This document shows, piece after piece, positions 6,482-35,344 of a stretch of DNA of 64,000 nucleotides. Source of the DNA: Sphaerolaimus hirsutus. Lineage: Eukaryota; Nematoda; Chromadorea; Monhysterida; Sphaerolaimidae. The stretch is taken from the NCBI GenBank assembly GCA_964036195.1, contig OZ038457.1:4498635-4562634 (forward strand), written 5' to 3'. The notes beneath the pieces were generated by a model. It ran no database searches, was not told the origin of the DNA, and was given only the letters and a program-made list of their open reading frames with translations. A program made the position numbers and the translations under genes. The first letter of the stretch is position 1. Every line of letters starts with the position of its first letter.

Positions 6482-7831
6482 CAGAGTTGCGAAAGCGTAT
6501 TTACGCTTACCCGAAATACCCGGGTAAATGGGTATTTATACTTACGCTTACGCTTACGCTTTCATAAAATACCCGTACGCTTTATTGCGCTTTCCCGGCC
6601 GAATTACCCGGGTACTAAAAGCGTAAAAAAGCTGTTTACACAGTACGGTTTTACGCGTTTGAAAAAGTACCAAAAATACTGCGTACCAAAAAAAGTGACT
6701 GCGTGTGTGCAATAATGCACTGGAAAAAGCGGAAATGCCTCTGCCTTAGTGAACCTTGCCTGAGGCAATGACTAAGTGTTTCTGCCGATGAATCGCCAAT
6801 GAATTGAATGAATCTGAGGGCAGACAACCAAACAGAGTTGCAAAAACGTATTTACGTTTACCCGTAATACCCGGTTATTTGGGTATTTATACTTACGTTT
6901 ACGTTTACGTTTTCATAAAATACCGTTACGTTTTGTTACGTTTTCCTGACCTAAATACCCGGGTACCAGAGAAAACGTAAAAAAACGTTGTGAGACGCAA
7001 AAATTTTCGGCAAAATGCAACTTCTGCCATAAATTTCCGACAACTTAATGTCCGATTAAAAATTTTCCGCACACTTTTCCTCCACAGAAGCCGTTTTTTC
7101 AAAATAGGTATATTCAATATTCAAATTATTCTATGGTTCGACCCCACCTGCAGTGCTAATGTATGTATTACTTCCCAAACACGAATTGTGCCAAATGCGT
7201 TAAAAAAGTCAGCGGATGCTGTTATTTTGTGGCTTTTGTGGATTAATTTTGTGCTATTTGAAAATCAAATGTTGTAAGAACTCTATGAATTGCCATAATA
7301 TAATTTTTTTGTGACATAACACTTGGGAAATCATTGGCAGAACGTGACAAATTGTTTGAAAAACTGGCAAAAAAATAGAAGGGCAGCTTCCAAAAGACGG
7401 CATCTCCATAATAGAAAGTTGGTGACAAATAGAAGGGCACCCTTCTATTAGATGAAATACGGTAATAATGTTTTTACGTTTACGTTTTATTTAACGTTTT
7501 CCCAGGTATTTTAAAAATACCTTACGTTTTAGTATTTATACTTTCATTTTGGAAAAGGTATTTACGTTTACGTTTACGTTTTCCAAAAATACCAGTATTT
7601 GACCAACTCTGCAACCAAATGGGCGTCAAAAAAAATTAGCTGGGAGCTTGATTTTGTAAGAATCCTCTGAACAAAGACTCTGTTAAAAAAAATGTACGCT
7701 TACACTTTTTTTACGCTTTCCCAGGTATTTTAAAAATACCTTACGCTTTGAGTATCCATACTCAAAATTTGGAAAGTGTATTTACGCTTACGCTTACGCT
7801 TTCCAAAAATACCGGTATTTTAACAACTCTG
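6482..7831. mobile_element. hAT-type MITE, CAGAGTTG ends, word CTTACG
   Basis: The ends are CAGAGTTG and CAACTCTG, flanked by the exact 8-mer gttgacac (6474-6481 and 7832-7839). The terminal 350 bp and 210 bp repeat CTTACG/CGTAAG, as in ACGCTTACGCTTACGC. The ends fit the YARNG pattern of hAT transposons. A sister element with a different word is inserted at 6833-7611. No transposase is encoded. Confidence 0.85.
6833..7611. mobile_element. hAT-type MITE, CAGAGTTG ends, word TTTACG
   Basis: It is nested inside 6482-7831, with the exact 8-bp duplication caaccaaa at 6825-6832 and 7612-7619. The framework matches the host element closely (GTATTT, TACCCG, GGGTATTTATAC in the same order), but the repeated word is TTTACG throughout instead of CTTACG. 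A decayed CCGTTCTATT/AATACGGTA end lies inside near 7370-7462. Confidence 0.87.
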
Positions 7832-7888
7832 GTTGACACAGACCAGTCGACGCACATGTGTCAACTAGTGTATGGGGCGCCTATTCGG

Positions 7889-8245
7889 AGAAATACCGTA
7901 GGCACTTTTTGCTTCCAAATCCTTTATGGGTGTGGCGGAATCGAATAAAGAAAAATTTTACAAAAATAATTGCAACCACATGGACATAAATTGAATACCT
8001 AAATACTATAGTGCAGTAGAATGGTTGAAGATACATGGAGTAAACTTGAATATTTGCGAAATGTGGCACAACATTGCAGGGTGAATTTTATCAATGTGAG
8101 CTAAGTGTCAAATGTCACCTATAGTATATGGTGCAGCGAAAAAGCCATAAATACATAGAACAAGCCATAAATTTTGGTAGGTGAAAACACAAAGAAAAGT
8201 TTCCACAAAAGCTTTATTATTTACTTATGTAATTACCTAGCTATG
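7889..8245. other. Short non-coding spacer
   Basis: Nothing beyond AT-rich sequence is visible between the 7880 element boundary and the TA-flanked element at 8248. Confidence 0.5.
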
Positions 8246-8247
8246 TA

Positions 8248-8762
8248 CCGTATTTCCTCGAAATACCCCCCCCCCCCTCGAAAAACCCCACCTCAAAATA
8301 CCCCCCCTCAAAATGGACACTATGAACTTATAAACCCCCCCCTCGAAATACCCCCCCCCTCGAAATACCCCCCCCCTCAAAATGGACACTATAAACTTAT
8401 AAACCCCCCCTCGAAATACCCCCCCCCCCCAATTTAGTGTATAGAGAACGTAAATGACAAAGGCTGCGGTTTGTCATCCCGGCAATGCAGAACACACGTT
8501 AAAAACGATGACTCTGTTATGTGAGAACAGTGTTTGTACATCTACACACTTATAAATGTCTTTAGAGTCTTATAAATGGCGATTTTTGTTGCATTTTTCG
8601 ACGTCTGCGTACGTTTCAGACGGCATTTTAGTACTGGGATTTCAAAAAATTTCTGGCGAAATAATAACCCCCCCCCTCGAAATACCCCCCCTCGTTTAAC
8701 CCCCCCTCAAACTTCTCACTCTGAAAAAATAAACCACCCGGGGGTATTTCGAGGAAATACGG
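8248..8762. mobile_element. TA-flanked MITE with C-runs, CCGTATTTCC ends
   Basis: It begins CCGTATTTCCTCGAAATA and ends TATTTCGAGGAAATACGG, with TA on both sides (8246-8247 and 8763-8764). Next to each end are repeated blocks of CCCCC(C)TCGAAATA. This is the cleanest full copy of a family found at least ten times in the window. TA duplication suggests the Tc1/mariner superfamily. It carries no transposase. Confidence 0.85.
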
Positions 8763-8764
8763 TA

Positions 8765-9092
8765 TGTAGGTAATTCGGCACATTGAATAAATAAAAACAT
8801 TTAGGTATATGTAAGAAATTTATACAGGTATCCTAAAAAAATAAAAAATAAAAAACTTATGGAAGTGCACTGCTTCATCAATCATGATTAAACCTGTTTG
8901 ATCTTCAATAATACCATAGGTAATCTTCACTCGAAATAAATACCTCGCATAAGGGACAGTGCCAGGGCACCGGCGAAAAATGACAAGTCAGGTAAAAGTT
9001 GTCAGATGTCATATTTCTCGTCTTGTCGTCGTAGTTGATTGAACTTAGCGAGTTTTGAGGGGGTGGGTGAGGCGTGTGTATGTGTATCGCTC
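8765..9092. other. Non-coding spacer
   Basis: AT-rich sequence without an exon or repeat end that I can support. Confidence 0.45.
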
Positions 9093-12480: not shown

Positions 12481-12481
12481 G

Positions 12482-13450
12482 CAACGATGGGTAAGTTCTC
12501 CAAAAAAAAACACTTTCTGTGTTTTGAGTTTTTCAAAAATGAATACCTGTGTTTTGAGTTTTTTTCTCGAAAAAAACTTGAGTAACTCTGTTTTTATTTC
12601 TGTGTTTTTTTTGTAAAAACTCGATTTTTTGAGTTTTTTTCTAAAAAACTCGAGTTTTTTCCAAAAAATCGAGTTTCCCCCCCAAAAATTTCGATTTACA
12701 GCATTTCGATCTGAAAACAGTGGTTTTCTTATAAAATATTGGTTTTACACATGTTTTAACCCCACATAACATCTGTGTATTCATTCAAGTGTCAAAAAGT
12801 CCATAAAAATGTCCACAATGACGTAACCAAAACAGGTTATAAATGCATACAAACAGGATATATTTGAAATAAACATGTAGATAGCTACACAACCTAGTAC
12901 AGTCTATGTGTAGCTGCGATGCAAATTATCAGTAATAAATACATCATGGATACATTGGATACATGATGTACATCATCCCGGAGGGGGCTATTTTGAGGGG
13001 GACTTATTATTTCACCAGTCCATTTTGAGGGAAGTTAATTCAAGGGGGTTAATTCGAGGTAATAATGTATACTTAAATGTCGAAACTTAAATGTCGAAAC
13101 TTAAATTGTCAAATCCACCATGAGATGTGCATGCCATCTTGAATTTTTTATTTGTACCATTATAAAATATGAATACATACTGTACATATTTACACACTAT
13201 ACATGCTTATCTTATCTTGTTTAGTATAACTGAATTAATGTGCATTCAACCGCTTCACTGAAAAAAAACACAAAAACTCAGAAAAACTTTTCTGTGTTTC
13301 CGTGTTTCTGTGTTTCTGTGTTCTCCAAAAAACAACTCATTTGAGTTTTGAGTTTTTCAAAATTTATGAGTTTCCGTGTTTCTGTGTAAAACAAAAACAC
13401 AGAAACTCAATGAGTTTCTGTGTTCAATTTCTGTGTTTTTTCCATCGTTG
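12482..13450. mobile_element. hAT-type MITE, CAACGATGG ends, word TGTGTTTTTGAG
   Basis: The ends CAACGATGG and CCATCGTTG are flanked by the exact 8-mer catagcgg (12474-12481 and 13451-13458). Both sub-terminal regions repeat TCTGTGTTTTTGAGTTTTT-like words on one strand or the other. A decayed right half of a CCGTATT element lies at about 12885-13060. Confidence 0.85.
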
Positions 13451-16531: not shown

Positions 16532-17860
16532 AATTCTAAAAGTCGACAAGTCCATAAAATGTGATTTTGAGTAAATCGCATTTTAAGTTTCAAACCCAAT
16601 TCCAGGCCCGTGGTGCGTGTCCAATTTGGCTCTCTCATGCTTTCCATTAAGTTCCATATGTTGACAATAAAGTGTCAAATTTTCAGCCCCTAATCTCAAC
16701 GTATATGTGAAAAATGGGGTGTCCATAAAATTCCATTCGGTCAGAGCAAAACTGTTTTTGGGAGGGAAATGGATTTGTCGCTAGGGTTCAAACGATATGA
16801 CTTTTCGATATCGATGTTCGATATTCGATATTGAAAAATGGTCGATATTCGATATTCGATATTTTGATATTTTCGATATTCGATATTGCGATATGCTTTT
16901 GGTATAGCAAGGCATATTTCAAGTGGCATATTGTATTTTCATGTGGTTGCACACATGTTTAATCATCTCTCCACTGAAATTTGAATGGTGCAAGTGATTT
17001 TAACAAGCTTACATCACTCAATGGTAGAAAATAGAAGAAAAACATGATGAATCAAAGTGTATCAGACAAATAACAATTGGTAGATATTACAGTTCATCCT
17101 AACCTAATTGCTTAAGGGCATGTTGCAAAAAAAGTATATCAGCGTTTTCTGGCTTCAAATTTAGCACTCCAACAACAATGACATTATAAATACTGTACTT
17201 TTACTCATCAAACACAATACTATAAGCACATCAGATCAACCATAAACATCTCCAAATGAAAATGAAAAGTAAATTTGGGGACACAATACAGGTTCGATAT
17301 ATCGAAAAAATGGTCGATATTCAATATCGATATTCGATATTTTTTCAAAATTTTCGATATCGATATTCGATATTCGATATTTTTTCAAAATTTTCGATAT
17401 CGATATTCGATATTCGATATTAAAAAATGGTCGATATCCGATATTCGATATTCGATACGATACATCGTTTGAACCCTACTTGTCGCCTTCTTGCAGGCAA
17501 GAACATTTTTGTTCCCACCCGCGTTGCGCCTCCCTTATGGGAAATTTATGTACTTGTCGGCTTTTAGAAATCGGTGCCCATAGTGGACTTATCACATTTC
17601 TTGCGTTTTTTTCACATAAAAAAGGATGCGCAGGATGGACTTGTCGACTTTTAGCCCAAAACTAAGTGGAGTTGTCGACTTCTTGCCCAAATTTTTTGCA
17701 TTTTTCCCCAAAAATGTCAAATTTGGCACTATGCCATATGGGCATGTGAGGTCAAAAAATTTATGGAAAATGATGAAAAATGTGCGGAAGTAGCCCCAGA
17801 TGACGTTTCCGGGCCTAACTCGAAATTTTCATATTTTGGACTTGTCGACTTTTAGAATTG
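16532..17860. mobile_element. GTCGACAAGTCC foldback, host of CGATAT element
   Basis: The left end AATTCTAAAAGTCGACAAG and right end CTTGTCGACTTTTAGAATT are inverted copies. Other words (TTTTAGCCCAAAACTAAG, GACTTCTTGCCCA) also recur at 4985 and 36163. The element at 16782-17478 is inserted in it. Confidence 0.7.
16782..17478. mobile_element. hAT-type MITE, TAGGGTTCAAACG ends, word CGATATT
   Basis: The ends TAGGGTTCAAACGAT and ATCGTTTGAACCCTA are flanked by 8-mers tttgtcgc and cttgtcgc, a near-perfect duplication. About 100-150 bp at each end repeat TCGATATTCGATATC on both strands; the middle is ordinary AT-rich sequence. Fragments of the same word element lie at 21873-21935 and 26835-26965. 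Confidence 0.83.
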
Positions 17861-18965: not shown

Positions 18966-19775
18966 GCCCAACACACTAATTGACAACGACACCGAATGTG
19001 AACTGGTTTCGATCCCAATTCAAAGCTAACTGACGATACGAAGTATTTACGACGTTAAGTGCAAAAGTGTTGAATCATGAAGCTGTAGTGTTGAAAGATA
19101 TTGCAACATGTGCTATTTCGAAGCCGGCATTAAGTGTAAATGTGTATACAATGTTACTCGTCAGTAGGGTGTCAACAAAAATTTTTTGGCGGAAAACGGA
19201 AACGGAAACGGAAAAATTTTTGCACATGCCGGAAAACGGAAACGGAACCGAAAAAAAATTTGCACTTGCCGGAAAACGGAAAACGGAAAAATGGAAGGCC
19301 GGAAAACGGAAACGGAAATGGAAAAATTTACTGAAATTATGCCGGAAACAGGAAAAATTTGCTGAAATTTTGCCGGAAACAGGAAAAAATTTGCAGAAAT
19401 TTATCCTGAATTAAAAAAATTTGCAGAAATCTCACTAGAAATAAAAAAAATTCACGTCATTGAGAACCTGCATGCATTTTTACCAGTTTGGCTGAAACAG
19501 AAAACAGAAAATTGAGCTGGAAAGTGGAAAAAAGTTGGAAAAACAGACAATTGAACCGGAAAACGGAAAAAGGCGGAAAAACTGAAAAAATTTGCCGGAA
19601 AACGGAAAATGAGCCGGAAAAACGGAAACGGAAACGGAAAAAAAATTTAGCAGCCGGAAAACGGAAACGGAAACGGAAAAAAATTTGCCTGCGGAAAGCG
19701 GAAACGGAAAACGGAAAACGGAAAGTTGACACCCTACTCGTCAGCCATTTTTGGCAACGCCAGCTCGTCAACTAG
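18966..19775. mobile_element. ACACTA-TTGAC element hosting a GGAAACGG element
   Basis: The left end is ACACACTAATTGACAACG and the right end CGTCAACTAGTGTGT. The hAT-type element at 19165-19736 is inserted inside. Confidence 0.6.
19165..19736. mobile_element. hAT-type MITE, TAGGGTGTCAAC ends, word GGAAACGG
   Basis: The ends TAGGGTGTCAAC and GTTGACACCCTA are flanked by the exact 8-mer ctcgtcag (19157-19164 and 19737-19744). Nearly the whole interior is GCCGGAAAACGGAAACGGAA-type repeats, in the same orientation across the element. That is unusual here, because most other word elements have the word in both orientations. A close copy lies at 30053-30626. Confidence 0.9.
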
Positions 19776-19958: not shown

Positions 19959-20803
19959 CAGAGTTGTGCAAATACTGGTATTTTTGGAAAACGTAAACGT
20001 AAACGTAAATACCTTTTCCAAATCAAAAGTATAAATACTAAAACGTAAGGTATTTTAAAAATACCAAGGAATACGTAAAAAAAAACGTAAACGTAAAAAT
20101 ACTTGTGCTTTGGAAAATACCATTATTTTCACCTTTAGTGTGGCAAAATTCAACTATACGCTGGTGATTCTGGGGGAGTCCCAGACCCTGTAAAATGTTT
20201 TGTAAAATGCCAAATGGCATGCAAAGTGTCTAAAGTCATGCAAAATGCCCTGGAAGGTGGCAAATCTTTGCCATTTTGCTGGCCATTTTCCATGACTTTT
20301 GACACTTTGCATGACGTTTGACATTTTACAGGGCTTTTTACATGTTCTGGGAGTGGCACCAGAGTTTGCACTCGCCCTGCCAGTTTCAAAACATTTTAAA
20401 AATGTTACTCACAGTTGTTGCAAGTGGCGTCGTCGGTATTCATCAAAAAAAATTTATAGACGCAAGGCTCCACAAACAAACAAAAAGGTTTCTGTGTTCA
20501 GCGTTTGAACACATTTATGAATATGTACCCAGTATTCCATATGTAAGTGCAAGCGTGCAGTCATGTTACGTTTTTGCGATAACATAAGAATATTGTTGGC
20601 TGCAGGTGGTGCGGCCCATTTGAATATGTGCACGTGTGAACGATTTCAAGTTTTTTTACGTTTTCCCAAGTACCCGGGTATTTTGGTCAGGAAAACGTAA
20701 CAAAACGTAATGGTATTTTTGAAAACCGTAAACGTAAACGTAAGTATAAATACCCGAATAACCGGGTATTTCGGGTAAACGTAAATACGTTTTTCCAACT
20801 CTG
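19959..20803. mobile_element. hAT-type MITE, CAGAGTTG ends, word AAACGT
   Basis: The exact 8-bp duplication is atatgggc (19951-19958 and 20804-20811). Words CGTAAACGTAAACG fill the ends. It carries a CTGTAAAATG foldback (20161-20362) at the same internal position as its relatives at 29040 and 30963, so that cargo was acquired before these copies spread. Confidence 0.9.
20161..20362. repeat. CTGTAAAATG foldback (introner-like family) inside hAT MITE
   Basis: It begins CTGGTGATTCTGGGGGAGTC, then CCAGACCCTGTAAAATG, and ends ATTTTACAGGGC...CTGGGAGTGGCACCAG. The interior repeats GTCAAATGGCATG/CATGACTTTTGACA words on both strands. The same family forms intron 1 of the secreted-protein gene at 28030-28263. 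Confidence 0.75.
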
Positions 20804-21826: not shown

Positions 21827-22877
21827 CTGTCCCAAACACTGTCATTTATTTGTGTGCACGCTGCATGCAACTGACGACGATATTAAATTTTTTCGATATC
21901 GATATTTCAAAACTGCTCGATATCCGATATCAAGGGGTATAGGACCATCAAATGGGGGACAATGCGGATACGACAAAAACTTTCCCGACAGACCAATATT
22001 TAAGAAAAACCTTTGAAAAACTTTTTGGGAAAAAAGGCACCAGGCACCTTACCTTCCTTCGTGACCGTGAGACTATGACGCACACAGAGATTTGTTTATA
22101 AATGATGCGGATATACGGTTAAATTATATACAATGTGGGACGATTAAGCTGGTAATTCCCAAACGACTTAATTCATCGAATTAATAGTGTGCGAAGCATA
22201 CGCTCCCTAGAGTATGCCATATCATTTAGATTAAGATTGATAAGCATAAATACCGTATTTCCTCGAAATACACCCCCCTCCCTTGAATACCCCTAGGCGT
22301 TTTCGAGCTAAGGAAAAATAAACAACCCCCTCGAACCCCCGTGTTGAATGACGTACATCACCTATACAATGCACATGATGTTTTTATTGGGGCCAAATCT
22401 CGTACAAGTGAAGAGACAATAGCTACTCCCCGTTTCACGTCACTGAACATCTCATCCCCCCCCCCCCCCCCACAGTGACGGGCAAAGTAAAGAGAAAGAA
22501 CAAAATGCATGACAATGACGTAATTCACTTGGTGGCGAAAGAGTCCACAGTGTCTGCGAGAAGAGCTTTGAATGCGGTTGGTTGTCAGGAATCCCAGCGG
22601 CAGTCCCGAGCTCTGTAAAGTGTCAAGTCAAGTGTCAAATGTCATGTAGTGTCATTCGAAACGGAAAATAAAAATTTTTGTTACTACATTTGCATGACAA
22701 TTGGCACTTTACTCTACATTTGACATGACAATTGACATGTTGCATTTTACATGACATTTGACCGTTTAGTTTACACTTCAGGGCTTGGGACTGCCACCTG
22801 GTGCTTGGGGCGCTTGGTGTCAAGTCAATTCATGTCGCCGTCATACACGTTTTTATTGATTTGGGTGGCATCAACTA
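21827..22877. other. Non-coding, CGATAT and CCGTATT fragments
   Basis: A CGATAT word fragment lies at 21873-21935. A CCGTATTTCCTCG end flanked by TA starts at about 22253 without a clear partner. A CTGTAAAGTG foldback is at 22599-22800. No exon is supportable. Confidence 0.5.
22599..22800. repeat. CTGTAAAGTG foldback
   Basis: The ends GGCAGTCCCGAGCTCTGTAA and TTCAGGGCTTGGGACTGCC are inverted copies, and GTCAAATGTCATG words recur between them. The sequence on its right (CACCAG then GTGGCAGTCCC on the minus strand) would also offer a splice donor, but I could not find coding sequence around it. Confidence 0.65.
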
Positions 22878-23357
22878 CCGTATTCCTCGAAATACCCCCA
22901 GGGGGTTTATTTTTTCAGAGTGAAATTTTTGAGGGGATGTTAAACGAGGGGGGGTATTTCGAGGGGGGGGTTATTATTTCGCCAGAAATTTTTTGAAAAC
23001 CCAGTACTAAATTGTCGTCTGAAACGTACGCAGACGTCGAAAAATGCAACAAAAATCCGCCATTAATAAGACTCCAAAGACTTGTATAAGTGTGTAGACG
23101 TATAAACACTTCTCAGATGACAAAGTCATCGTTTTTAACAGAGTTGTTAAAAGGTACGTACGTTTACTCGAAAAATACGCGTACGCGCGTACGCGGTAAA
23201 TACGTTTACATATACTTTTTAAAAAAATACCGTACGCGCTCGTACGCGTACATTTTCAAAGCATACGCGTACATAAAATGTATTTCAGAAAATTCAATGT
23301 GGGGGATATTTATAAAGTGACTACAGTGCTATGTATTTACAGACGTGGTTCCGTTGA

Positions 23358-23366
23358 ATATAAAAG
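23358..23366 (+). promoter_or_regulatory. Candidate TATA box of the cargo ORF
   Basis: ATATAAAAG lies 51 bp before the end of the leader of the 23417 ORF, a normal distance for a TATA box and a short 5' leader. It is a motif match only. Confidence 0.35.
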
Positions 23367-23416
23367 ATACGCGGGGGTAGCGCGCTTTAAAAATAAAAAA
23401 ACGCAACCAAATCGAA

Positions 23417-23623
23417 ATGGCTGCGGAGACAATCGAAGTGGAAACGAGTCGCGAGAGCGACGATGGAATGGATGATTCATCCGGTACCGCTGAAATCCCA
23501 GCTGGGGATGAACTGGGCTGGATGAAGCTGGGCACTGGTTTGTGTTGGAAAAAGTTGCACCTCGCTCCCGAAACATTAGAGAAGGAGCTTTTCATTCGCT
23601 TCAATTATAAGAAGTGTTTCTAG
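23417..23623 (+). CDS. Small ORF carried inside a hAT-type MITE, 68 aa, unknown
   Basis: I do not recognise this protein. It starts at ATG in a good context (ATCGAAATGG) and ends at TAG 23621. A TATA-like box lies 50-60 bp upstream and a polyadenylation signal AATAAA at 23694, about 70 bp after the stop. The N-terminal half is acidic (ETIEVETSRESDDGMDDSS). The C-terminal half has aromatic and basic residues (GWMKLGTGLCWKKLHL) and ends in NYKKCF. The GC content (about half) is higher than that of the surrounding element. The likely explanations are a captured host gene fragment or the first exon of one. Without relatives I cannot show that it is translated. Confidence 0.4.
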   Translation: MAAETIEVETSRESDDGMDDSSGTAEIPAGDELGWMKLGTGLCWKKLHLAPETLEKELFIRFNYKKCF

Positions 23624-23693
23624 TGATTTACCAGATTTGGATGAGTTAGGTTTTATTTTTGTTGCCGCTATTCTTGCTATTTTTATCTCCTAC

Positions 23694-23699
23694 AATAAA
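23694..23699 (+). terminator. Candidate polyadenylation signal
   Basis: AATAAA about 70 bp after the stop of the 23417 ORF. Such hexamers are frequent in AT-rich DNA, so only the position supports it. Confidence 0.3.
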
Positions 23700-24194
23700 G
23701 AGACCCTGAAAACTATGTTTTCTATCATTTTCTTAAACAAAAACATATGTTGTGCATGAAAAAGTGCCCACTTTACACCCACTTGAAATAATATTGACGC
23801 CTCACGAAAGGTGTAGCGTCAGGAATGACGAAAAGTGGTCGTTTCTACACTCGCAATAAAAGTACCCAAATTTACGCGTACGTACGAGTAAAAAAAAAGT
23901 ATTTTACGTTTTTGATACTTTGTGGTGAGTAAAAAAAATACTTACGTTTACATATACTTTTGAAAAAAGTTCAGTAATTCTAACAACTCTGGTTTTTAAC
24001 GTGTGTTCTTCATTGCCCGGATGACAAACCGCAGCCTTTCTCATTTACGTTCTCTATACACTAAATTTGGGGGGGGGGAATTTGGAGGGGGGTATTTCGA
24101 GGGGGGGGGGGGTAATTTGAGGGGGGTATTTCGGGGGGGGGGGGGTATTTCGAGGGACGTTTCGAGGAAATACGGTAGTTTCAATTGTCAATAG

Positions 24195-25125
24195 TAGTGA
24201 TGGAAAAGCGCCATGGCGCTGGCGCCTGGCGCTAGCGCCAAAGCAAAAAGCGTCATGGCGCTTTTGGCGCTTGGCGCTAAAACGCTCTTGCGCCTTTGGC
24301 GCTTGCCGCCGGATCTCAGAAAGCGCCATGGCGCTTTTGGCGCTTGGCGCCATTTTCTGGTGGCGCTATTGGCGCCTGGCGCCGGCATTATTAATGGCGC
24401 GAAAAAATCGCCAACTTTGATTATAAAAATTGCTATGATACTGTGAAATTGAAACTCCAGTTGATCAACTTTGAGGGCAACTGAATAAATTTTGATTGAT
24501 GTAAGGGTGTTGTAAGAGGTGATTTATTATTTTACAATTTTACATTTATAAAAGATTGATTAATATTAGGAGACAACTTTATTTGCATCGAATTCAATCA
24601 AAGGTGTAAAATGGTGCTTTTTTCAAAGGTCCTCATATTTGTTTAAATACCTTAGTTCTCACAAAAATGTGCTGGTATTGTATCCACCTTTATTCATTTT
24701 AAGCCTCAACTGATAAACATTGATGATTAAGACACAAAGAGATTATTGATTTCAAGAAAATTGATTTTTTCTAATCACTGAATCCCCTTCCAGAATTTCC
24801 CTTCCCCCTTACATGATTGATTGAACTTTTACGGCCAAAGTTAAATAGACTACATCGACATCAGCAGTACGTCACAGTTATGTATTCATAACTCTAAAAA
24901 CGAATTTAAGAAAAATTTTTTGGCGCTGGCGCTATTGGCGCTTGGCGCCATTACCCTATGGCGCCATTGGCGCTTGGCGCTGAGGTCCAGAAAAGCGCCA
25001 TGGCGCTTTTGGCGCTTGGCGCTATTTTGCTCTGGCGCCATTGGCGCTTGGCGCTGAAAGTAGGAAAAGCGCCATGGCGCTTTTGGCGCTTGGCGCTAAA
25101 CGCCTGGCGCTTTTTTCCATCACTA
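24195..25125. mobile_element. hAT-type MITE, TAGTGATGGAA ends, word GGCGC(T/C)
   Basis: The ends TAGTGATGGAAAAGCGCC and TTTTTTCCATCACTA are flanked by the exact 8-mer gtcaatag (24187-24194 and 25126-25133). About 200 bp at each end are tandem words of the type TTGGCGCTTGGCGC on both strands. The middle 450 bp are plain AT-rich sequence. A relative is at 34403. Confidence 0.92.
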
Positions 25126-25969: not shown

Positions 25970-26632
25970 TAGGGTTGGAAAAAAAACGTTTTTTTTTAAC
26001 TCGATGTTTTTTTTAAAAAAAAACGTTTTTTTTAAAAGCTCCCAGATATGACCTAGTGTCAACATATATAGGTATATCAGACACTGGCAATACTCTGTGA
26101 TGTTAAATATGACCATATAATGGCTGTGGAGCCATGGGATAGCATTATAAGTGGTGATTTGTGTCAAAAATATCCATTTTTCGTCGACATATTGTTTGTA
26201 TATCGCCTTATAGTCGAATGTTCGAGACTTCAGGTAAAGTTTGGCACGAAATGGTGATCAAACAAGGTTATAAAAGGAGGTTGTTACTTTGGGAGTGAAG
26301 TTACACACTGTGGAGGTACATGGAAGCACATTACCTCAATATTATATATTACAGCAACATATGTCGGCTTATTCACCCATGGTAGCACATAGAAATGGAT
26401 GTTTTGATACTAAAAATGCAACAAAACCAATGAAAACAACCACCAATGTCAATTTGTGTGTGAAATTGCGCGCTTGCGTGCAAAAATTTTGCAAAATACC
26501 CAGTGCTTAGTACTAAAAATTTCGGCCGATGTTTTTTTTAAAAAAAAAACATTTCGGACGTCATGTTTTTTATATAAAAAAAAACGTTAAAAAAAAAAAA
26601 AAACGTTTAAAAAAAAACATCGGCCAACCCTG
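25970..26632. mobile_element. hAT-type MITE, YAGGGTTGG ends, word AAAAAACGTTTTTT
   Basis: The ends TAGGGTTGG and CCAACCCTG are flanked by the exact 8-mer gttagtag (25962-25969 and 26633-26640). Sub-terminal sequence is runs of A and T around ACGT. The frame at 26289-26510 has no recognisable motif. Confidence 0.88.
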
Positions 26633-27361: not shown

Positions 27362-27474
27362 CCAAGCCCTGTTAAGTGTCAAGTTAAGTGTCAAATGCAT
27401 TTGACTTTACACTTGACACTTCACTTTACACTTGACACTTCACTTTACACTTTACAGGGCTTGGGACTGCCCCC
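27362..27474. repeat. Foldback in intron 3 of the secreted-protein gene
   Basis: The ends CCCAAGCCCTGTTAAGTG and CAGGGCTTGGGACTGCCCC are inverted, with TTACACTTGACACTTCAC words between. On the minus strand the splice donor AAG/GTCACC lies 7 bp before the element begins. Confidence 0.75.
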
Positions 27475-27481
27475 AGGTGAC

Positions 27482-28451
27482 CTTGTCTCCTCTGGTTGCA
27501 CAGGAAGTCGTAGGTGGGCAGCGCGAGCGTGGCCCAGGGGCTGTTCTCGGCCGCCTCTGGGCACGGGTCCAGGCAGCGGCCCCCGGGCGCCATCTCCCTG
27601 CTGAAAAACCTGTAAGGGGCATCCGCTGTGCTCGACAGTTTTTCACGCGACTTATTGACGTATCCGCTAAAGTGATTATATCGTACTGAAATATCTTTGT
27701 TTTACCTGGGTCTACCTACTCCCAGAGGCTGTGAAATGTTCTGTAAGATGTCAAATGTCATGCAAGGTGTCAAAGGCCATGTGAAATGCCCTGGAAAATG
27801 CCAAATTTTATTTGGTTTATGGATGTTTGACATTTTACATTTGACTTTTCAAACTCTGCATTACATTTTACATCACATTTTACAGAGCCTGGAAGCGACA
27901 CCTTGAGTAGACTGAGATAACTGACTGGCAGGCGTCATCCACTATGCCTGGCAATGCTCTCTGCAGCTCCGTAAGGGCATCCAAATCGCTGTTGTACATA
28001 TCGTAGTATCTACTCATCTCCTCCCTCCTGGGGCAGTCCCAAACCCCGTGAAATGCCCTGCAAAATGTCAAATGTGATGCAAAATGTCTGAAGTCATGTA
28101 AAATGACATGGAAAATGTAAACTGTGATGCTAAAGTCATGTAAAATGCGCCCGAATCAGGCAAATGTACATTTGCCGTTTTCCAACGCATTTTACATGTC
28201 TTTCGACACTATACATGGTACTTGACATTTTGCAGGACATTTTACAAGGTCTGGGAGTGGCACCAGAAAGTGTTTAAACGGTTGTTCATGCAGACCATCG
28301 CGTCCTCGCACAGGCCCGGCATGCGGTACATGAGCCAATTGAAGGCCGGCCTCCGCACGGCCCGCAGCATGTCGCTGTATGGATCGGCGCTTGCCATTGT
28401 AGCCAGCGCCATGACAATGGCACACGAAATGGTGTGACTAGGTGCCATCAT
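27482..28451 (-). CDS. Secreted protein of unknown family, 3 exons, 3' end not found
   Basis: Exon 1 is 28451-28264, exon 2 28027-27902 and exon 3 27597-27482. Splice donors are CTG/GTGCC, AAG/GTGTC and AAG/GTCAC; acceptors are CCCCAG/G and CAGCAG/G. Both joins are phase 2 and keep the frame. Two tandem ATGs start the protein. The first 21 residues (MMAPSHTISCAIVMALATMASA) form a hydrophobic segment ending ASA, a typical signal peptide. The mature part has cysteines spaced as in a disulfide-bonded domain (GLCEDAMVC, DDACQS, GRCLDPCPEA, YDFLCNQRR). I do not recognise the family. Exon 3 ends in phase 1, so at least one more exon follows that I could not locate. All three introns contain the same foldback family. 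A hAT-type element sits in the 5' leader. Confidence 0.75.
27714..27902. repeat. Foldback in intron 2 of the secreted-protein gene
   Basis: The ends CCCAGAGGCTGTGAAATG and TTTTACAGAGCCTGGAAGCG are inverted, with CAAATGTCATGCAAGGTG words between. On the minus strand the intron donor GTGTCG is the first sequence of the element. The element covers about two thirds of this 304-nt intron. Confidence 0.78.
28030..28263. repeat. Foldback that constitutes intron 1 of the secreted-protein gene
   Basis: The ends GGGGCAGTCCCAAACC and GGTCTGGGAGTGGCACC are inverted, with GTAAAATGCC/CATTTTACATG words between. The intron is 28263-28028 (236 nt). Its GT belongs to the GGTGCC end of the element, and its AG is the first two bases beyond the other end (CCCC/AG). 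Apart from those two bases, the intron is the element. Confidence 0.8.
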
Positions 28452-28459: not shown

Positions 28460-28721
28460 TAGTGATGTAAAGGCACCGGGGCACCGGTGCCCCGGTGCTG
28501 GGCACCGAAGGGCACCAGCACCGGTGCTGGTGCGGTGCCATTGCAATCTTCAGGGGTGCCATGCCGGTACCGGTGCCATTTTTACCAAAAGGCACCGGTG
28601 CCGGTGCGGTGCGGTGCCATTTTCTGGCCGGTGCCCCGGGGTGCCAGGTGCCCTTTTCATGCGTTGGCAAAGGTGCTGGTGCGGTGCGGTGCCATTTTTC
28701 CCGGTGCCTTTAACATCACTA
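28460..28721. mobile_element. hAT-type MITE, TAGTGATGTAA ends, word GGCACCGGTGCC
   Basis: The ends TAGTGATGTAAAGGC and GCCTTTAACATCACTA are flanked by the exact 8-mer gctgcgtg (28452-28459 and 28722-28729). The interior is almost entirely GGCACCGGTGCC-type words. It lies just 8 bp upstream of the ATG of the secreted-protein gene, so it is within the 5' leader if the start is right. A longer copy is at 56061. Confidence 0.92.
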
Positions 28722-28780: not shown

Positions 28781-29295
28781 AAAAAAACGACAACAATAAC
28801 GAATTGTTTAACATGGATAGACTGGTGTTTTTATGAAGTGATTATTTATTATTTTGCTCACGTCGACAGACTTTCAGATATAGATTTCTTAGTATACTCA
28901 GCGGACATGATACTCTGCCCTCGCACTCATTTATGTCTCACGTTGGAAGCGTGCCAATGATGACAAAGCGTGCGATTTTTGTATAAAAGATGAAAAACTC
29001 ATTGTTGTGAAAAAATTAACATATAGCGTTATAACAGAGCAGAGTTGTGCAAATACTGGTATTTTTGGAAAACGTAAACGTAAACGTAAATACCTTTTCC
29101 AAATCAAAAGTATAAATACTAAAATGTAACGTATTTTTAAAATACCAAGGAATACGTAAAAAAACGTAAATGTAAAATTTTTACACATAGTATTTGCCAT
29201 TGTGCTTTGGAAAATACCGTTATTTTCACCTTTAGATGGGTAAATCGCCCCATCTGCACGACTTTCTGTTTTAAGTGTGGCGAAATCCAACTATG

Positions 29296-29499
29296 CTGGT
29301 GATTCTGGGTGAGTCCCAGCCAGACCCTGTAAAATGCCTTATAAAATGTCAAATGGCATGCAAAGTGTCTAAAGTCATGCAAACTGCCCTGGAAGGTGGC
29401 AAATCTTTGCAATTTTGCTGGGCATTTTACATAAGTTTTGTCATTTGCATGAAACTTTACATTTTACAGGGCATCCTACAGAGTCTGGGATTGGCACCA
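29296..29499. repeat. CTGTAAAATG foldback inside hAT MITE
   Basis: It is the same cargo as at 20161-20362: CTGGTGATTCTGGG, CAGACCCTGTAAAATG, then ATTTTACAGGGC and GTCTGGGATTGGCACC. Confidence 0.72.
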
Positions 29500-30052
29500 T
29501 AGCTTGCACGCCCTGCTAGTTTCAAAACGTGTGCTACTCACAGTTGTTGCAATTGGCGGCGTCGGAATTCATCACAAAAAAAAATTATAAACACAAGGCT
29601 TCACAAACAAACAAAAAGTGTTCAGCATTTGAACACATTTATGAATATGTACCCAGTATTCCATGTGTAAGTGCAAGCGTGCAGTCACTTTTTTGTATGC
29701 ATACAGATTAAGTTTATGCAAAAACATAAGAATATTGTTGGCTGCAGGTGGTGCGGCCCATTTGAACATGTGCACGTGTGAACGATCACGTTTTTTTTAC
29801 GTTTTCCCCAGTACCCGGGTATTTTGGTCAGGAAAACGTAACAAAACGTAATGGTATTTTTGGAAAACGTAAACATAAACGTAAGTATAAATACCCGAAT
29901 AACTGGGTATTTCGGGTAAACGTAAATACCGTATTACCACGAAATACCCCCATGGGGGTTTATTATTTTGCCAGCAAAATTTGAGGGGGGGTTAATTCGA
30001 GGGGGGGTTTATTATTTCGTCAGTAATTTTCGTAAGGATCGTAGTAAATAGT

Positions 30053-30626
30053 TAGGGTGTCAACAAAAACTTTTTGGCGGAAAACGGAAACGGAAACGGA
30101 AAAAAATTTACACTTGCCGGAAAACGGAAACGGAAACGGAAAAAAATTTGCACCTGCCGGAAAACGGAAAACAGAAAAATGAAAGGCCGGAAAACAGAAA
30201 CGGAAACGGAAAAATTTGCTGAAATTATGCCGGAAACGGAAAAAATTTGCTGAAATTTTGCCGGAAACGGAAAAAAAATTCCAGAGATTTATCCAGAAAT
30301 CAAAAAATTTGCAGAAATCTTGCTAGAAATAGAAACAATTCACATAATTAAGTACCTGCATGCATGTTTACCAGTTTGGCTGAAACAGAAAACAGAGATT
30401 GAGTCAGAAAATGGAGAAAAAAAGTTGGAAAAACAGACAATTGAGCCGGAAAAAGGAAAAAAGGCGGAAAAACTGAAATTTTAGCCGGAAAAAGGAAAAT
30501 GAGCCGGAAAAACGGAAACGGAAACGGAAAAAAAATTTAGCAGCCGGAAAACGGAAACGGAAACGGAAAAAAATTTGCCTGCAGAAAGCGGAAACGGAAA
30601 ACGGAAAACGGAAAGTTGACACCCTA
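30053..30626. mobile_element. hAT-type MITE, TAGGGTGTCAAC ends, word GGAAACGG (copy 2)
   Basis: The exact 8-bp duplication is taaatagt (30045-30052 and 30627-30634). It is collinear with 19165-19736 over its full length with scattered substitutions. Confidence 0.92.
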
Positions 30627-30962
30627 TAAATAGTAGGCATTTGCGTACCCAAAATAGGTAATAAATGTGTCCAAACAGGATATATTTGGACATAAAAACG
30701 TAGATAACTACACAAACTACCGTATTACCTCGAATTATCCCCCCCCCTTGAATTAACCCCCCCCCCCTCGAATTAACCCCCCCTCAAAATGGGCTGGGGA
30801 AATAATGAACCCCCCCTCGAAATACCCCCCCTCCTGAATGATGAATATCATGTATGCAATGTACATGATGTATTTATTATTACTAATTTGCATCGCAGGT
30901 ACACTTATACGCTCATTTGTGTACAGATGTACACCTATAGCCCAGATATATGACCTATTTTC

Positions 30963-31739
30963 CAGAGTTGTGCAAATACTGGTATTTTTGGAAAACGTAA
31001 ACGTAAACGTAAATACCTTTTCCAAATCAAAAGTATAAATACTAAAACGTAAGGTATTTTTAAAATACCAAGGAATACGTAAAAAAAACGTAAACGTAAA
31101 TTTTGTTACACACAGTATTTGCCGATGGAAAATACCATTATATTCACCTTTAGATGGGTCAATCGCTCCATCTGCACCACTTTCTGATGTAAGTGTGGCC
31201 AAATCCAACTACGCTGGTGATTCTGGGGGATCCCAGACCCTGTAAAATGCCTTGTAAAATGTCAAATGGCATGCACAGTGTCTAAAGTCATGCAAAATGC
31301 CCTGGAAGGTGGCAAATCTTTGCCATTTTGCTGGGCATTTTACATGAGTTTTGACATTTGCATGAAATTTTACATTTTACAGGGTGTCCTACAGAGTCTG
31401 GGATTGGCACCAGAGCTTGCACTCGACCTACCAGTTTCAAAACGTGTACTACTCACAGTTGTTGCACGTGCGTCATCCGAACTCATCACAAAAAAATTTA
31501 AAAACGCAATTTATTTTTATACATGTTACTTTTATGCAAAAACATGAGAATATTGTTGGCTGCAGGTGGTGCGCGTGTGAACGATCACAAGTTTTTTTTA
31601 CGTTTTCCCTAGTACCCGGGTATTTTGGTCAGGAAAACGTAACAAAACGTAATGGTATTTTTGGAAAACGTAAACGTAAGTATAAATACCCAAATAACCG
31701 GGTATTTCGGGTAAAAGTAAATACGTTTTTCCAACTCTG
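30963..31739. mobile_element. hAT-type MITE, CAGAGTTG ends, word AAACGT (innermost)
   Basis: The exact 8-bp duplication is ctattttc (30955-30962 and 31740-31747). It is a slightly shorter relative of 19959-20803 with the same CTGTAAAATG foldback cargo at 31214-31413. Confidence 0.9.
31214..31413. repeat. CTGTAAAATG foldback, innermost level
   Basis: It has CTGGTGATTCTGGGGGATCC and CTGGGATTGGCACCAG ends and GTCAAATGGCATG words, as at 20161 and 29296. Confidence 0.72.
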
Positions 31740-32810
31740 CTATTTTCTCACGTTTTTACCCATTTTTGTGTATGAAAAAGCGTATTCTTTACTATGAATT
31801 TCACGAAAATTTCTGACGAAATAATAACCCCCCCCCCCTCGAATAACCCCCCCCCCCTCGAATTAACCCCCCCTCAAATTTTGCTGGTGAAATAATAAAC
31901 CCCCATGGGGGTATTTCGAGGTAATACGGTACTCTATGTGTAGCTGCAACTTGTGTATGCAATGCAAATTAACAGTAATATACATCATGTACATTACGTA
32001 CATGACGTATTTATTATGTACATGACGTACATCATTCCGAAGGGGGTATTTCGAGGGGGGTTTATTTTTTCCCCAGCCCATTTTGAGGGGGGGTTAATTC
32101 GAGGGGGGGGGGTTAATTCAAAGGGGGGATAATTCGAGGTAATACGGTACGTTTTTCCAACTCTGTAACAGAGATGACTGTCAACTTTTTATGAAGATCG
32201 CATGCGTAAAAAAAATCGTTGGCACGCTTCCAGCGGAAACCACGCGTGCAGGGTGTAAAGTGACTTGGGTATAATGAGACAGTCCTTTTATGCTGCCAGA
32301 TTTACCCTAGGTAATTCTAAACTTTTAAACTTAATGTAATGTGATGCGAGTGGCCTTTGCGTAGTTTTTAGCTGGTATTTAGTTTACACAGTTCTAATAA
32401 ACGTAAACTAGTGAGACCTGGGGCCAGATATTATTCTCCCTACAGATTTGTAGGGTAGGGCGTACGCCCGATAGATTTTTTAAGTTCAGCCGCATCGACG
32501 CACATGCACTGAGAGCAAGGCGCTTTGTAAAATACACGAAAATATCCTTTAAGGTCACCGATATTGCAATATGACGTATATCACTTCGATTTTGGCCCGG
32601 AAATCACGATTTCGTCATTTCTTGGCCGTGCGCCAATTCGTTCTTTTTCGATTTTGTCGGGCGCATTACTCGCATAAGTCGCGCTTTTGTATAGTCACGT
32701 GGTCACTTTTTTAGTGTTCACTGCCTTCAACTGAAACCATGACGGCAGCGACAAGAAAGAAATGCCTGCATGAGCATACAAAAGCGCGAACTTATGCGAG
32801 TAATGCGCCC

Positions 32811-33849
32811 CATAGGCGGCATAAGTGCTTGCGCGCTTTTAGCGGGATTTTTGGTGTCACAAGCAGAAATTTCACTGCCACATTGTGACATTCACAAGCG
32901 CATATTGTACAAACAATAGTAAAAGCTCAAAATTAGCTCAAGATCGCTAAAATTTGCTCCATTTTGCCAATTTTCTCCTTTATAATCACTATGTTTATCT
33001 ATATACATGGTTATATGTTTATTTTAGTTATATTTATAGCGATTTCGAAATTTTTGGCTGGCTGCCAACTTCACATAAGGGCTCCAAAAAAAGGTGTCAC
33101 AAGGTGAAAATTTGGATAATGTGAATGTCACAAGCGCAAATTGGCAGAGTTGCGAAAGTGTATTTACACTCACCCGAAATACCCGGATAAATGGGTATTT
33201 ATATTTACACTTACACTTTTATAAAATACCCTTACACTTTTTTTACACTTTCCAAGCCAAATTACTAGGGTAATAAAAGTGTAGAAAGAATTTCACATGG
33301 GCCAGTTCTACACCTTGAAAAAGTGTAAAACTACAAAAGAAATTGAATGAGAACTGGTGTCAAAAAAACCCTGCACATGTGCAATAGCTCACCGAAAAAA
33401 GAGATCAGGATTTCGGCACACACCAACAACGGCCAGAAATGACACCAGAAATGGCCGCTAATAGTTGGAGATGGAAATATCCTGCACACTAGTTGACACA
33501 TGTGTGTCAACTGGTCTGTGTCAACTAAGATTTCGGCTTTCGTGTTGCAGAGCGATCTCCAAATGCACTCCAAATGCGCCTGTTTGTCATCGTTGGCGAC
33601 AGTGTATTTCTATTCATTTCAATTAATTTCAGGTGTATCCAAATCTGTTGGTGTCTTGCCAAGTCCTCATATGGCATGAAATTTTTACACTGACAGTTTT
33701 TTTTACACTTTCCTAGGTATTTTAAAAATACCTTACACTCACAGTATCCATGCACAAAATTTTGTAAGTGTATTTACACCTACATTTACACTTTCTAAAA
33801 ATACCAGTATTTTAACAACTCTGCAAATTGGGACCTTGCGCCGCCTATG
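32811..33849. mobile_element. CATAGGCGGC element with 8-bp duplication
   Basis: The ends CATAGGCGGCATAAGTGC and CTTGCGCCGCCTATG are flanked by the exact 8-mer atgcgccc (32803-32810 and 33850-33857). The words GTCACAAG and GTGACATTCACAAGCGC repeat. The clean copy at 48502-48890 is about 390 bp; here the excess is the element at 33145-33823. The ends do not fit YARNG, so its superfamily is open. Confidence 0.83.
33145..33823. mobile_element. hAT-type MITE, CAGAGTTG ends, word CTTACA
   Basis: The exact 8-bp duplication is caaattgg (33137-33144 and 33824-33831). The framework equals 6482-7831, but each CTTACG word reads CTTACA or TTTACA (GTGTAAATGTAAG on the other strand). It contains a GTTGACAC word fragment at 33486-33545. 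Confidence 0.87.
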
Positions 33850-34093
33850 ATGCGCCCGACAAAATCGAAAAAAGAACGAGTTGGCCGATGGCCAAGAAAC
33901 GACGAAATCGTGATTTCCGTGCCAAAATCGAAGTGATATACGTCATATTGCAATATCGGCGACCTTAAAGGATATTTTCGTGTATTTTACAAAGCGCCTT
34001 GCCTTCAGTGCATGTGCGTCGATGCGGCTGAACTTAAATAATCTATCGGGCGTACGCCCTACCCAAATCTGTAGGGAGAATTAAATCTGGCCC

Positions 34094-34394
34094 TGTGTTA
34101 GTTATGTTTTGTTATAGCGCTTTAACGCTTTTCACACTTGATGTTTAAATTTCTGTCTAAGAAAACACAATGGCGCTTTTGGTGCTGGCGCCATCTTACA
34201 GCTGGCGCTATGTAGCATAAAAATTATCACCGAAAAAGCATCATAGGTGGTCATGAGAAAAAGTAAAAAAATTACTTTACGTTTTCTGTACTCAGGGGAC
34301 GAGTATAAAGAATGCTTTACGTTTACGTACACTTCCAATTTTTTTCGACATTTAACATCTCCGGTTTACTCGTTACTTTACCCTATTCGTTAAT
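34094..34394. other. Non-coding spacer
   Basis: A few GGCGC-like and TTTACG words occur near 34170-34330, but no element boundaries or gene can be supported. Confidence 0.4.
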
Positions 34395-34402
34395 GCTGCG
34401 AT

Positions 34403-35344
34403 TAGTGATGGAATGGCGCCATGGCGCTGGCGCCATTTGAGGGCGCCAAAGGGCGCCGCGCCATGGCGCCATTGGCGCTTGGCGCCCTTTTTCTGTGGCG
34501 CCCTTGGCGCCTGGCGCCCACATTCTGAAAGGCGCCATGGCGCCCTTGGCGCTTGGCGCCCTTTTTCCGTGGCGCCCTTGGCGCCTGGCGCCCTGCTTTA
34601 AAAAGGCGCCAAAAAGGCGCCAGCAGGGTTTCAAGGTGAGCGTTGTATAAATGAAAAAAATGAACAACTCATCCGTGGATGATCTAAATTCGCCAGAAAA
34701 ATGGACAAAGTGGTTTGAGTGGGTGGGAATCTTTCGTCAAATGGTTCATAAGATGTGCCTGAGCGATCAGAAGACAAGGATGATGGACCATCGAACTTGC
34801 AAAATCATAAATCAATCGATTCAAATCGTTGCAATTCCGTTTTTGTCCATTTCAAGGGAACATTGATTGAAAAAGTCTAGGTATTTGAAGTGAATGGATT
34901 GTTGTCTAATGACAATTTCCATTGTGTTTGAATTTGTCATGTGGGTTTTTTATAAAAATATTCTGTTGCTAGTCTTGTTTTTGTTAATTAAATCCTGGAG
35001 AACGTGAATTAAGACGTAAATGCATGTAAACAAGTGCTGTATAATCATTTTTAGCACACACAGGGTGTTGACCGCACCTATTTATACTGGCGCCCTTGGC
35101 GCCTGGCGCCCTATTTTTCAAATGGCGCCATGGCGCCCTTGGCGCTTGGCGCCCTTGGCGCTTGGCGCCCTCTTTCCGTGGCGCCCCTGGCGCCTGGCGC
35201 CCACTTTCCAATTAGCGCCATGGCGCCCTTGGCGCCTGGCGCCCTTTTTCGGTGGCGCCCTTGGCGCTTGGCGCCCATTTTCCGAATGGCGCCATGGCGC
35301 CCTTGGCGCCTGGCGCCCTTTTTTCTGGCGCTTTTCCATCACTA
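34403..35344. mobile_element. hAT-type MITE, TAGTGATGGAA ends, word GGCGCC(C/T)TTGGCGC, with small ORF
   Basis: The exact 8-bp duplication is gctgcgat (34395-34402 and 35345-35352). About 220 bp at the left and 250 bp at the right are GGCGCC words on both strands. The unrepeated middle 34630-35080 holds the 34651 ORF. It was inserted within a GATTACAGCTC sequence of the 15275/38781 type. Confidence 0.92.
34651..34866 (+). CDS. Small ORF in the middle of a GGCGCC MITE, 71 aa, unknown
   Basis: I do not recognise it. It starts at ATG after GTTGTATAA and ends TGA 34864. It is basic and tryptophan-rich near the start (EKWTKWFEWVGIFRQMVHKM) and lacks low-complexity sequence, unlike the frames created by the GGCGCC words. 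It is one of two MITEs here with such a central ORF (the other is 23417). It could be captured host sequence, a remnant of a transposase, or chance. Codon usage is too short to judge. Confidence 0.3.
   Translation: MKKMNNSSVDDLNSPEKWTKWFEWVGIFRQMVHKMCLSDQKTRMMDHRTCKIINQSIQIVAIPFLSISREH

Follow-up and report, generated by a model that had tools for sequence, protein, structure and literature searches.

In this study, we analysed a 64,000-base window of the Sphaerolaimus hirsutus genome (G000:C13:4498635-4562634, within a 348-Mb assembly; positions below are those of the window), which contains elements predicted to be non-autonomous hAT transposons of several lineages, in which a short word is repeated many times near the ends. 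In the family defined by the tip CAGAGTTG, ten homologous words switch together in place between the forms AAGCGTA, AAACGTA and AAGTGTA, and the frame around them stays much the same. This concerted switch is shown letter by letter for the CAGAGTTG family only. We consider it probable that the words are sites for the BED zinc finger of a hAT transposase and that they were switched as the preference of this finger shifted between sister transposases.

Seven CAGAGTTG elements are present in the window, in which every left (7) and right (7) tip of this type is paired:

6482..7831, plus strand: predicted CAGAGTTG hAT element, host of 6833-7611; word AAGCGTA (13 copies, with 2 AAGTGTA and 0 AAACGTA); target-site duplication (TSD) GTTGACAC, exact.
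6833..7611, plus strand: predicted CAGAGTTG hAT element nested in 6482-7831; word AAACGTA (14 copies, neither AAGCGTA nor AAGTGTA); TSD CAACCAAA, exact.
19959..20803, minus strand: CAGAGTTG element in the opposite orientation to 6482; word AAACGTA (14 copies); TSD ATATGGGC, exact.
23139..23991, plus strand: CAGAGTTG element, internal-deletion derivative of L039:244-6249; word CGCGTA; TSD GTTTTTAA, exact.
29040..32165, minus strand: CAGAGTTG element split by nested insertions; word AAACGTA, partly AAATGTA/AAACATA; described from its exact TSD TAACAGAG, left-part word counts and junctions.
30963..31739, minus strand: CAGAGTTG element nested in 29040-32165; word AAACGTA (12 copies); TSD CTATTTTC, exact.
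33145..33823, plus strand: CAGAGTTG element; word AAGTGTA (10 copies, neither AAGCGTA nor AAACGTA); TSD CAAATTGG, exact.

When aligned and oriented, five of these elements (6482, 6833, 19959, 30963 and 33145) have ten word sites in common, a site being counted when three or more of the five match AARYGTA, with R and Y as the diagnostic letters. These letters read GC at 10/10 sites in 6482, AC at 10/10 in both 6833 and 19959 and AC at 9/10 in 30963, and in 33145 the second letter is T at 10/10 and the first is G at 9/10. Between 6833 and 33145, 19/20 diagnostic letters differ versus 56/265 (21.1%) of the other letters (P = 2e-11); between 6482 and 6833, the corresponding values are 10/20 and 38/271 (14.0%; P = 3e-4), and 17.5% of the non-diagnostic columns differ between 6482 and 33145. 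The pattern separating 6482 from 6833, with one letter changed alike at ten sites and the other at none, has a chance of approximately 2e-12 or less under independent sites, a value given by a formula applied to sites picked after the data had been seen. A preliminary description of this DNA, made from the letters alone, had suggested that a motif is copied outward from the ends. The replacement of CAGAGTTG words letter for letter at homologous sites of a conserved frame speaks against this as a general rule. Local tandem duplication does occur in the arrays of the TAGTGATG family, which contain 74-bp units, and such units lend some credit to a satellite-like homogenisation of the words by gene conversion, template switching or motif copying that would involve no binding protein. 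In the CAGAGTTG family, however, words of 7 bp, in both orientations and at both ends, differ between sisters while their neighbours do not differ alike, and conversion tracts so short would not be expected; homogenisation of this kind is in our view unlikely.

The direction of the letter changes bears on a second alternative, namely that the words differ through mutational decay by CpG deamination. Both AAGCGTA to AAGTGTA and GGCGCC to GGTGCC are CpG-to-TpG changes, the palindromic GGCGCC decaying on either strand would yield the GGTGCC/GGCACC pair observed in the TAGTGATG family, and element 29040 contains AAATGTA (3) and AAACATA (2), as decay predicts. Against this, all 11 scorable word CpGs of 6482 are TG in 33145 when read in the word sense, with no CA (the twelfth is a gap), whereas ten frame CpGs compared between the same two elements comprise 3 kept, 3 CA, 0 TG and 4 other. 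Moreover, the letter that sets AAACGTA apart lies outside the CpG, which is intact in 12/12 cases. The one-sided TG outcome rules out symmetric CpG decay as the source of the CAGAGTTG words but leaves it a candidate for GGCGCC to GGTGCC, and decay as the general explanation appears improbable. For the TAGTGATG words, CpG decay of the palindrome and 74-bp tandem duplication could both be contributing.

Uniformity of the words extends beyond the window. A search with the CAGAGTTG tip and open word slots 1 and 2 identified 4,251 copies in the genome (reversed control, 0). Among the first 100 listed, all on contig C1, the two slots hold the same word in 88 (35 AAACGTA, 27 AAGTGTA and 26 AAGCGTA), compared with a mean of 32 and a maximum of 49 in 10,000 shuffles; the slot pattern is unable to detect the CA form AAGCATA. 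Among the other 12 of these 100 copies, five have AAGTGTA in the first slot followed by AAGCGTA in the second and may represent mixed-word stages. In 28 TSD-bounded CAGAGTTG elements, the share of the commonest word averages 0.93 (lowest 0.67) against 0.70 (maximum 0.78) in 5,000 draws of a null that ignores kinship among copies, the fetched copies having been preselected by their first word. Out of 32 elements, this sample retains 28, each having six words or more (L033, L039 and the window elements 23139 and 29040 were dropped, two of them of the CGCGTA type), and it excludes L007 and 6 of 20 fetched places where no right end had a matching duplication. Those 20 places came from a search pattern that requires ARCG in word 1 and ACG in word 2 and therefore shuts out AAGTGTA copies. 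AAATGTA was considered as a fourth word and rejected: the copies in L104 are part of a different nested repeat, and L101 resembles a decayed AAACGTA element.

The CAGAGTTG elements belong to a larger inventory. Tip-guided calling, in which 8-bp duplication pairs were sought at two mismatches or fewer, identified 18 elements with six named tips and paired 8-bp duplications, 17 of them exact and one (16782-17478) with one mismatch, in line with the at least sixteen elements with YARNG ends announced by the preliminary description. In addition to the CAGAGTTG elements, these comprise four TAGTGATG elements (out of 5 left and 7 right tips), two YAACGATGG elements (3 left, 2 right), two YAGGGTT elements (12 left, 10 right), two TAGGGTGTC elements (2 left, 2 right) and one TAGGGCTCG element (1 left, 1 right). 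The YARNG start fits the CAGAG, TAGTG, YAACG, YAGGG and TAGGG tips; the CATAGG tip does not fit. A tip-blind scan that demanded an exact 8-bp duplication and at least 8/10 paired tip letters returned 69 pairs, against 1-7 in each of ten Markov-shuffled sequences. Word-against-word or inverted-repeat matches account for many of the additional pairs, but the scan also revealed a further family, CATAGGCG, with two elements (32811-33849 and 48502-48890). Together with their inserts, the twenty elements cover 16,618 of 64,000 bases in sixteen intervals, and the stretch from 6474 to 39800 is occupied by them over 14,822 of its 33,327 bases. Nesting is found for 6833 in 6482, 33145 in 32811, and 30053 and 30963 in 29040. 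The phenomenon had been placed at 6482-35344; elements do lie there, but this range is too narrow, and 48502-48890 and 56061-57467 are also members. Across the window and the fetched loci, 50 pairs were retained at a limit of one mismatch, and in 47 of them the duplication is exact. The elements of the other families are:

12482..13450, unstranded: YAACGATGG element, A/T-rich, word TGTGTTT/GAGTTT; held-out test failed; TSD CATAGCGG, exact.
16782..17478, unstranded: YAGGGTT element, word CGATAT; held-out P = 0.001; TSD with one mismatch.
19165..19736, plus strand: TAGGGTGTC element, word GGAAACGG; TSD CTCGTCAG, exact.
24195..25125, unstranded: TAGTGATG element, word GGCGCT/AGCGCC (GGCGCT 23, GGCGCC 7); TSD GTCAATAG, exact.
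25970..26632, unstranded: YAGGGTT element, A/T-rich AAACGTTT-type words; held-out test failed; TSD GTTAGTAG, exact.
28460..28721, unstranded: TAGTGATG element, word GGTGCC/GGCACC, zero GGCGCC; TSD GCTGCGTG, exact.
30053..30626, plus strand: TAGGGTGTC element nested in 29040-32165, word GGAAACGG; TSD TAAATAGT, exact.
32811..33849, unstranded: CATAGGCG element, host of 33145-33823; held-out word test failed; TSD ATGCGCCC, exact.
34403..35344, unstranded: TAGTGATG element, word GGCGCC (36 copies, with GGCGCT 7), 74-bp tandem units; TSD GCTGCGAT, exact.
36276..37200, plus strand: TAGGGCTCG element, word GACTCGA; TSD ATTGGAAC, exact.
38116..39763, unstranded: YAACGATGG element, word TTCGAA(TTTT); held-out P = 0.105; TSD CATGTCAT, exact.
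48502..48890, unstranded: CATAGGCG element, word TGTCACAAG; held-out P = 0.004; TSD CTGTCCAG, exact.
56061..57467, unstranded: TAGTGATG element, word GGTGCC/GGCACC, zero GGCGCC; TSD GTAAATAC, exact.

The words are tied to the ends of the elements. In a held-out test on 19 elements (29040 was omitted because insertions split it), the most over-represented 6-mer was chosen in the 5′ end and then counted in the 3′ end, and 15 of 19 elements passed at P<=0.015, which agrees with the claim of a single word per element bound to its ends. The failures are both YAACGATGG elements (12482 and 38116), the YAGGGTT element at 25970 with its A/T-rich words, and the CATAGGCG element at 32811. Within 793 bp of flank, the chosen word is absent for 12 of the 15 passing elements; one copy was found for 30963, two for 48502 and four for 34403. 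That the word blocks might be microsatellites or low-complexity arrays lying within MITEs (miniature inverted-repeat transposable elements) by chance draws on the four failures, on the A/T-rich composition of some words and on the 74-bp tandem units from which the number of TAGTGATG words in part comes. The recurrence of the words at the opposite end in 15/19 elements and their rarity in flanks, the homologous places of the CAGAGTTG words in a unique frame, and the matching slots 1 and 2 of 88 of the first 100 listed genome copies rule out independent microsatellites for most families, and the chance explanation is very improbable. Neither microsatellites independent of the boundaries nor single-copy words, both of which had been named as outcomes contrary to the preliminary description, were found. 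Its statement that words usually lie on both strands does not hold for several directional words: GGAAACGG, GACTCGA, TGTCACAAG and most CAGAGTTG words (the first one excepted) run one way along the element in the scored ends; TGTGTTT and GGTGC are of mixed orientation there.

Remnants of hAT transposases are found in four tip families. A genome search for PF05699 (hAT dimerisation) returned at least 28 matches, of which 16 of the 28 listed lie inside TSD-bounded elements of these four families with the same words (15 duplications exact, one mismatched), and the assignment to hAT-type MITEs thus holds up. They comprise eight TAGGGTGTC/GGAAACGG elements related to 19165-19736 (L011, L012, L016, L030-L032, L035 and L038; L016 only with GGAAAACGG), two CAGAGTTG/AAACGTA elements, five YAACGATGG/TTCGAA relatives of 38116-39763 (L023, L024, L028, L034 and L036) and one YAGGGTT/CGATAT element with one mismatch in its duplication. 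The L032 match, which lies within a TAGTGATG element, belongs to a nested TAGGGTGTC element. A seventeenth match, L013, sits within L039, and eleven of the 28 listed were not placed in such elements. No CATAGGCG element was seen among the fetched loci, and Pfam identified no hAT domain in 18 open frames of the window (185 frames of at least 70 aa are listed outside retroelements).

L039 (244-6249) is a CAGAGTTG element of 6,006 bp with the exact duplication CCTTGGCG, in which CGCGTA occurs 9 times in the first 200 bp, twice in the last 200 bp and once in the intervening 5,606 bp. The ends of the MITE at 23139-23991 are 98.4% (375 bp) and 95.6% (472 bp) identical to those of L039, and this MITE retains pieces of the first and last L039 transposase exons, which indicates that it is a deletion derivative of L039. 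The check for autonomous transposases proposed in the preliminary description thus turned out positively for one tip family, in which a 6-kb element with hAT transposase pieces has the same tips and words as a MITE; in the other families, transposase remnants were seen in short copies only. The C-terminal piece of L039 matches solved Hermes transposase chains at E = 8e-13, and the C-terminal pieces of L013 (CGCGTA) and L014 (AAACGTA), which have a common tip, are 54% identical. When the L039 C-terminal piece was searched against proteins, 867 candidates were scored and none reached E 0.001; a pattern search of a viral collection gave two matches.

The N-terminal exons of L039 encode W..F and Cx2C, followed by Hx4H beyond an intron, which is the pattern of a BED finger; compared with solved structures, the first BED exon gave two matches, at E 1.7 and 2.2. 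A genome search with the first BED exon adjoining an AAGCGTA end (L064) gave 87 matches, from which 32 loci (31 distinct) were sampled, 12 cut by the search and 20 chosen with weight on low identity; 7 of 72 places from a search with the AAACGTA-linked L080 exon and the exons of L039, L064 and L065 were added. The word class was scored 120-440 bp upstream of the exon, giving 42 rows. Not among these rows are L066 and L096, which coincide with L064 and L069, L013 and L060-L063 (overlapping L039, L064 and L065), and L087, an AAGCGTA row removed by a length filter. Word class and BED exon are linked in this table. Class BED-A has 28 rows, with AAGCGTA in 24 of 24 scorable rows and 4 unscorable; class E has one CGCGTA and one unscorable row, and class F two unscorable rows. 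The two-by-two table of BED-A/B by AAGCGTA/AAACGTA reads 24, 0, 1, 3 (P = 0.001), L080 being unscorable here though five AAACGTA occur over a wider stretch. Sister lineages with different words thus appear, from their exons, to have different fingers, which does not imply causation. L065 contains two successive BED exon pairs at 5813-8934 (minus), upstream of a CAGAGTTG right end at 828, and its left end was not found; this is perhaps a two-finger transposase, or two broken copies.

The arrangement of the words speaks to the nature of the binding partner. In 5/5 CAGAGTTG elements scored, the first word lies at position 12 from the left tip. The left end opens with a sense word, and those that follow are antisense, except one at 133-141 (and one at 177 in 33145); the right end has sense words, the exceptions being two in 6482 and one in 33145. 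A first site at position 12 and Hermes-like orientation, the two features taken here to mark a Tol2/Hermes-like end, are thus both found in the CAGAGTTG family. The BED finger of Hermes binds 5′-AAG(T/C) repeats that are sense and then antisense at the left end and sense at the right end, and its base-contacting residues directly precede the zinc-binding His (PMC10368747). The words match Hermes BED sites in position and orientation, and two of the four CAGAGTTG words (AAGCGTA and AAGTGTA) also do so in their letters; the words are therefore most likely transposase binding sites. The preliminary description had also proposed an arms race over a sub-terminal binding protein. On a reading of this kind, the words would bind a host repressor or carrier and families would diverge, but no specific observation favours it. 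The match to known transposase BED sites and the tracking of word class with the element's own BED exon both argue against a host protein, which we consider very unlikely; the transposase's own finger is the simpler partner.

Several points weigh against sites switched with a BED finger. The word sites were picked with five letters held and the two diagnostic letters left free. The AAG(T/C) of Hermes is missing from AAACGTA and CGCGTA. Pfam returned 0 families for each of the separate N-terminal exons of L039, the finger being read from Cx2C...Hx4H across the intron, and exon 2, which holds the equivalent of the Hermes contact, was recovered for the L039, L064 and L065 copies only and not for the AAGCGTA, AAACGTA and AAGTGTA types. 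The 10 BED-B rows are few and mixed: three have AAACGTA, three have AAATGTA (those of L104 being part of another repeat), the weakly classed L079 has AAGCGTA, and three are unscorable. As BED exon and words lie on one element, their association is also expected from shared descent. Finally, none of the 28 listed PF05699 matches could be assigned to the TAGTGATG, TAGGGCTCG or CATAGGCG families.

If the words are nevertheless BED-finger sites, as we consider probable, the tips (CAGAGTTG and the others) would be the cutting points of the transposase, the repeated word would be the sub-terminal site of its N-terminal BED zinc finger, and the approximately 10-40 word copies could allow cooperative loading of a multi-subunit transposase. 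Finger preference would shift between sister transposases of one tip family, with each lineage's transposase preferring its own word, and only copies with words fitting the current finger would keep moving. Mismatched copies would stop, which would leave the words of a living lineage uniform and the frame and tip still recognisable. Selection through binding would drive the switch. More tentatively, the word may act as an exchangeable address, with finger and word changing jointly against a constant tip and catalytic part, one tip family splitting into isolated sub-families within one genome, each MITE lineage passing mixed-word stages, and the same exchange perhaps holding in a non-hAT group that has TACCGTATT ends and duplicates TA. 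Comparing ends across species makes it difficult to follow how a transposase and its many binding sites change jointly, or how new transposon families are cut off from older ones in the same cell. The genome studied here contains three word states of a single tip family side by side within a conserved frame, some with a BED exon nearby, and the co-evolution of a DNA-binding finger with a multi-site target becomes directly testable. Matched finger-word pairs could also serve as orthogonal transposon ends.

Other repeats were identified alongside these elements. The TACCGTATT-end group is represented at 29927-32149 and by 24 such ends in the window; for the copy in 29040, the corresponding empty site, as seen in 19959 and 30963, indicates a TA duplication (one case), and the words differ between copies of the group (CTCGAAATACCCCC, CTCGAATTAACCCCC, CTAATATAAGG and CTAATAGAACGGCA). 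YAGGGTT ends were also seen together with the different words GATCCCG (TAGGGTTCAAACGGGATCCCG) and GACCCG (TAGGGTTGGGAACCCGACCCG) at L065 9901-9450 (minus) and L014 2797 (minus), and the YAGGGTT tip may have four words. Another word-filled repeat, with about seven copies by eye, has ends near CAGTCCCAAGCCCTGTAAAGTGTC and words such as TGTCAAATG:

20170-20355, 22590-22815, 27365-27480, 27720-27900, 28030-28265, 29310-29495 and 31225-31415, and L104 (minus): CAGTCCCAAGCCCTGTAAAGTGTC-end repeat copies, by eye.

Also by eye, a nested inverted-repeat element with words like TTGTCGCGCA surrounds a small TAGTGATAGG element at 4541-4860, and a fragment at 2080-2300 ends in CAGAGGTG, the Tgf2 tip, with CAAGTA-like words, its other end not being found. 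At 44413-46320 and 60538-61194, Ty3/gypsy-like reverse transcriptase, RNase H and integrase domains were identified, together with a second reverse transcriptase that is LINE-type by look.

Concerted word exchange within one tip family was not met in the literature searched, which covered few subscription papers or Repbase reports, and this counts as weak evidence of absence; a search for TACCGTATTT gave unrelated titles only. Among known hATs, the tip of maize Ac is TAGGG, like that of the TAGGGTGTC family, the tip of Herves is TAGAGTTG, and plant hAT MITEs are also packed with repeated words. Sub-terminal repeats bound by hAT transposases are already established for Ac, Tgf2, Herves and Hermes (PMC3260210, PMC4890040, PMC3143072, PMC10368747), and the preliminary description was right to see in such sites the nearest known parallel. 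The AAACGG hexamer of maize Ac/Ds is contained in the GGAAACGG word of the TAGGGTGTC family, and 438 of 486 Ds-l4 elements keep at least three such hexamers but, apart from the tip, hardly anything more of Ac (PMC3260210); maize is, however, another organism group. In Herves of Anopheles, one short motif, CG/AATTCAT, is repeated at both ends and bound by the transposase in gel shifts, and bound regions are reported to vary between hATs and to ensure specificity, whereas the word itself is unlike those described here (PMC3143072). The hAT-derived BED domains of CGGBP and hAT-19 have widely different 8-mer preferences (CGG, GCGC and AT-rich), and the motifs of four hAT-encoded BED proteins match sub-terminal regions of their own models; this is a cross-species protein comparison, and the part of it drawn on here does not treat concerted word change within one MITE family (PMC8097297).

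The fish elements Tol2/Tgf2 share with the CAGAGTTG family a CAGAG-TG tip and a first AAGT at position 12 of the printed L50 probe, and Tgf2 has many repeats per end (17 and 18). They differ in the tip CAGAGGTG and the shorter AAGT-type repeat, and the account of Tgf2 drawn on here describes no swapped sister words (PMC4890040). Hermes of Musca domestica resembles the CAGAGTTG family in the positions and orientation of its repeats and in the match to the L039 C terminus; the account of Hermes used here gives one site type per element, whereas in Sphaerolaimus hirsutus sister families with the same tip have differing words, two of them lacking the Hermes motif (PMC10368747).

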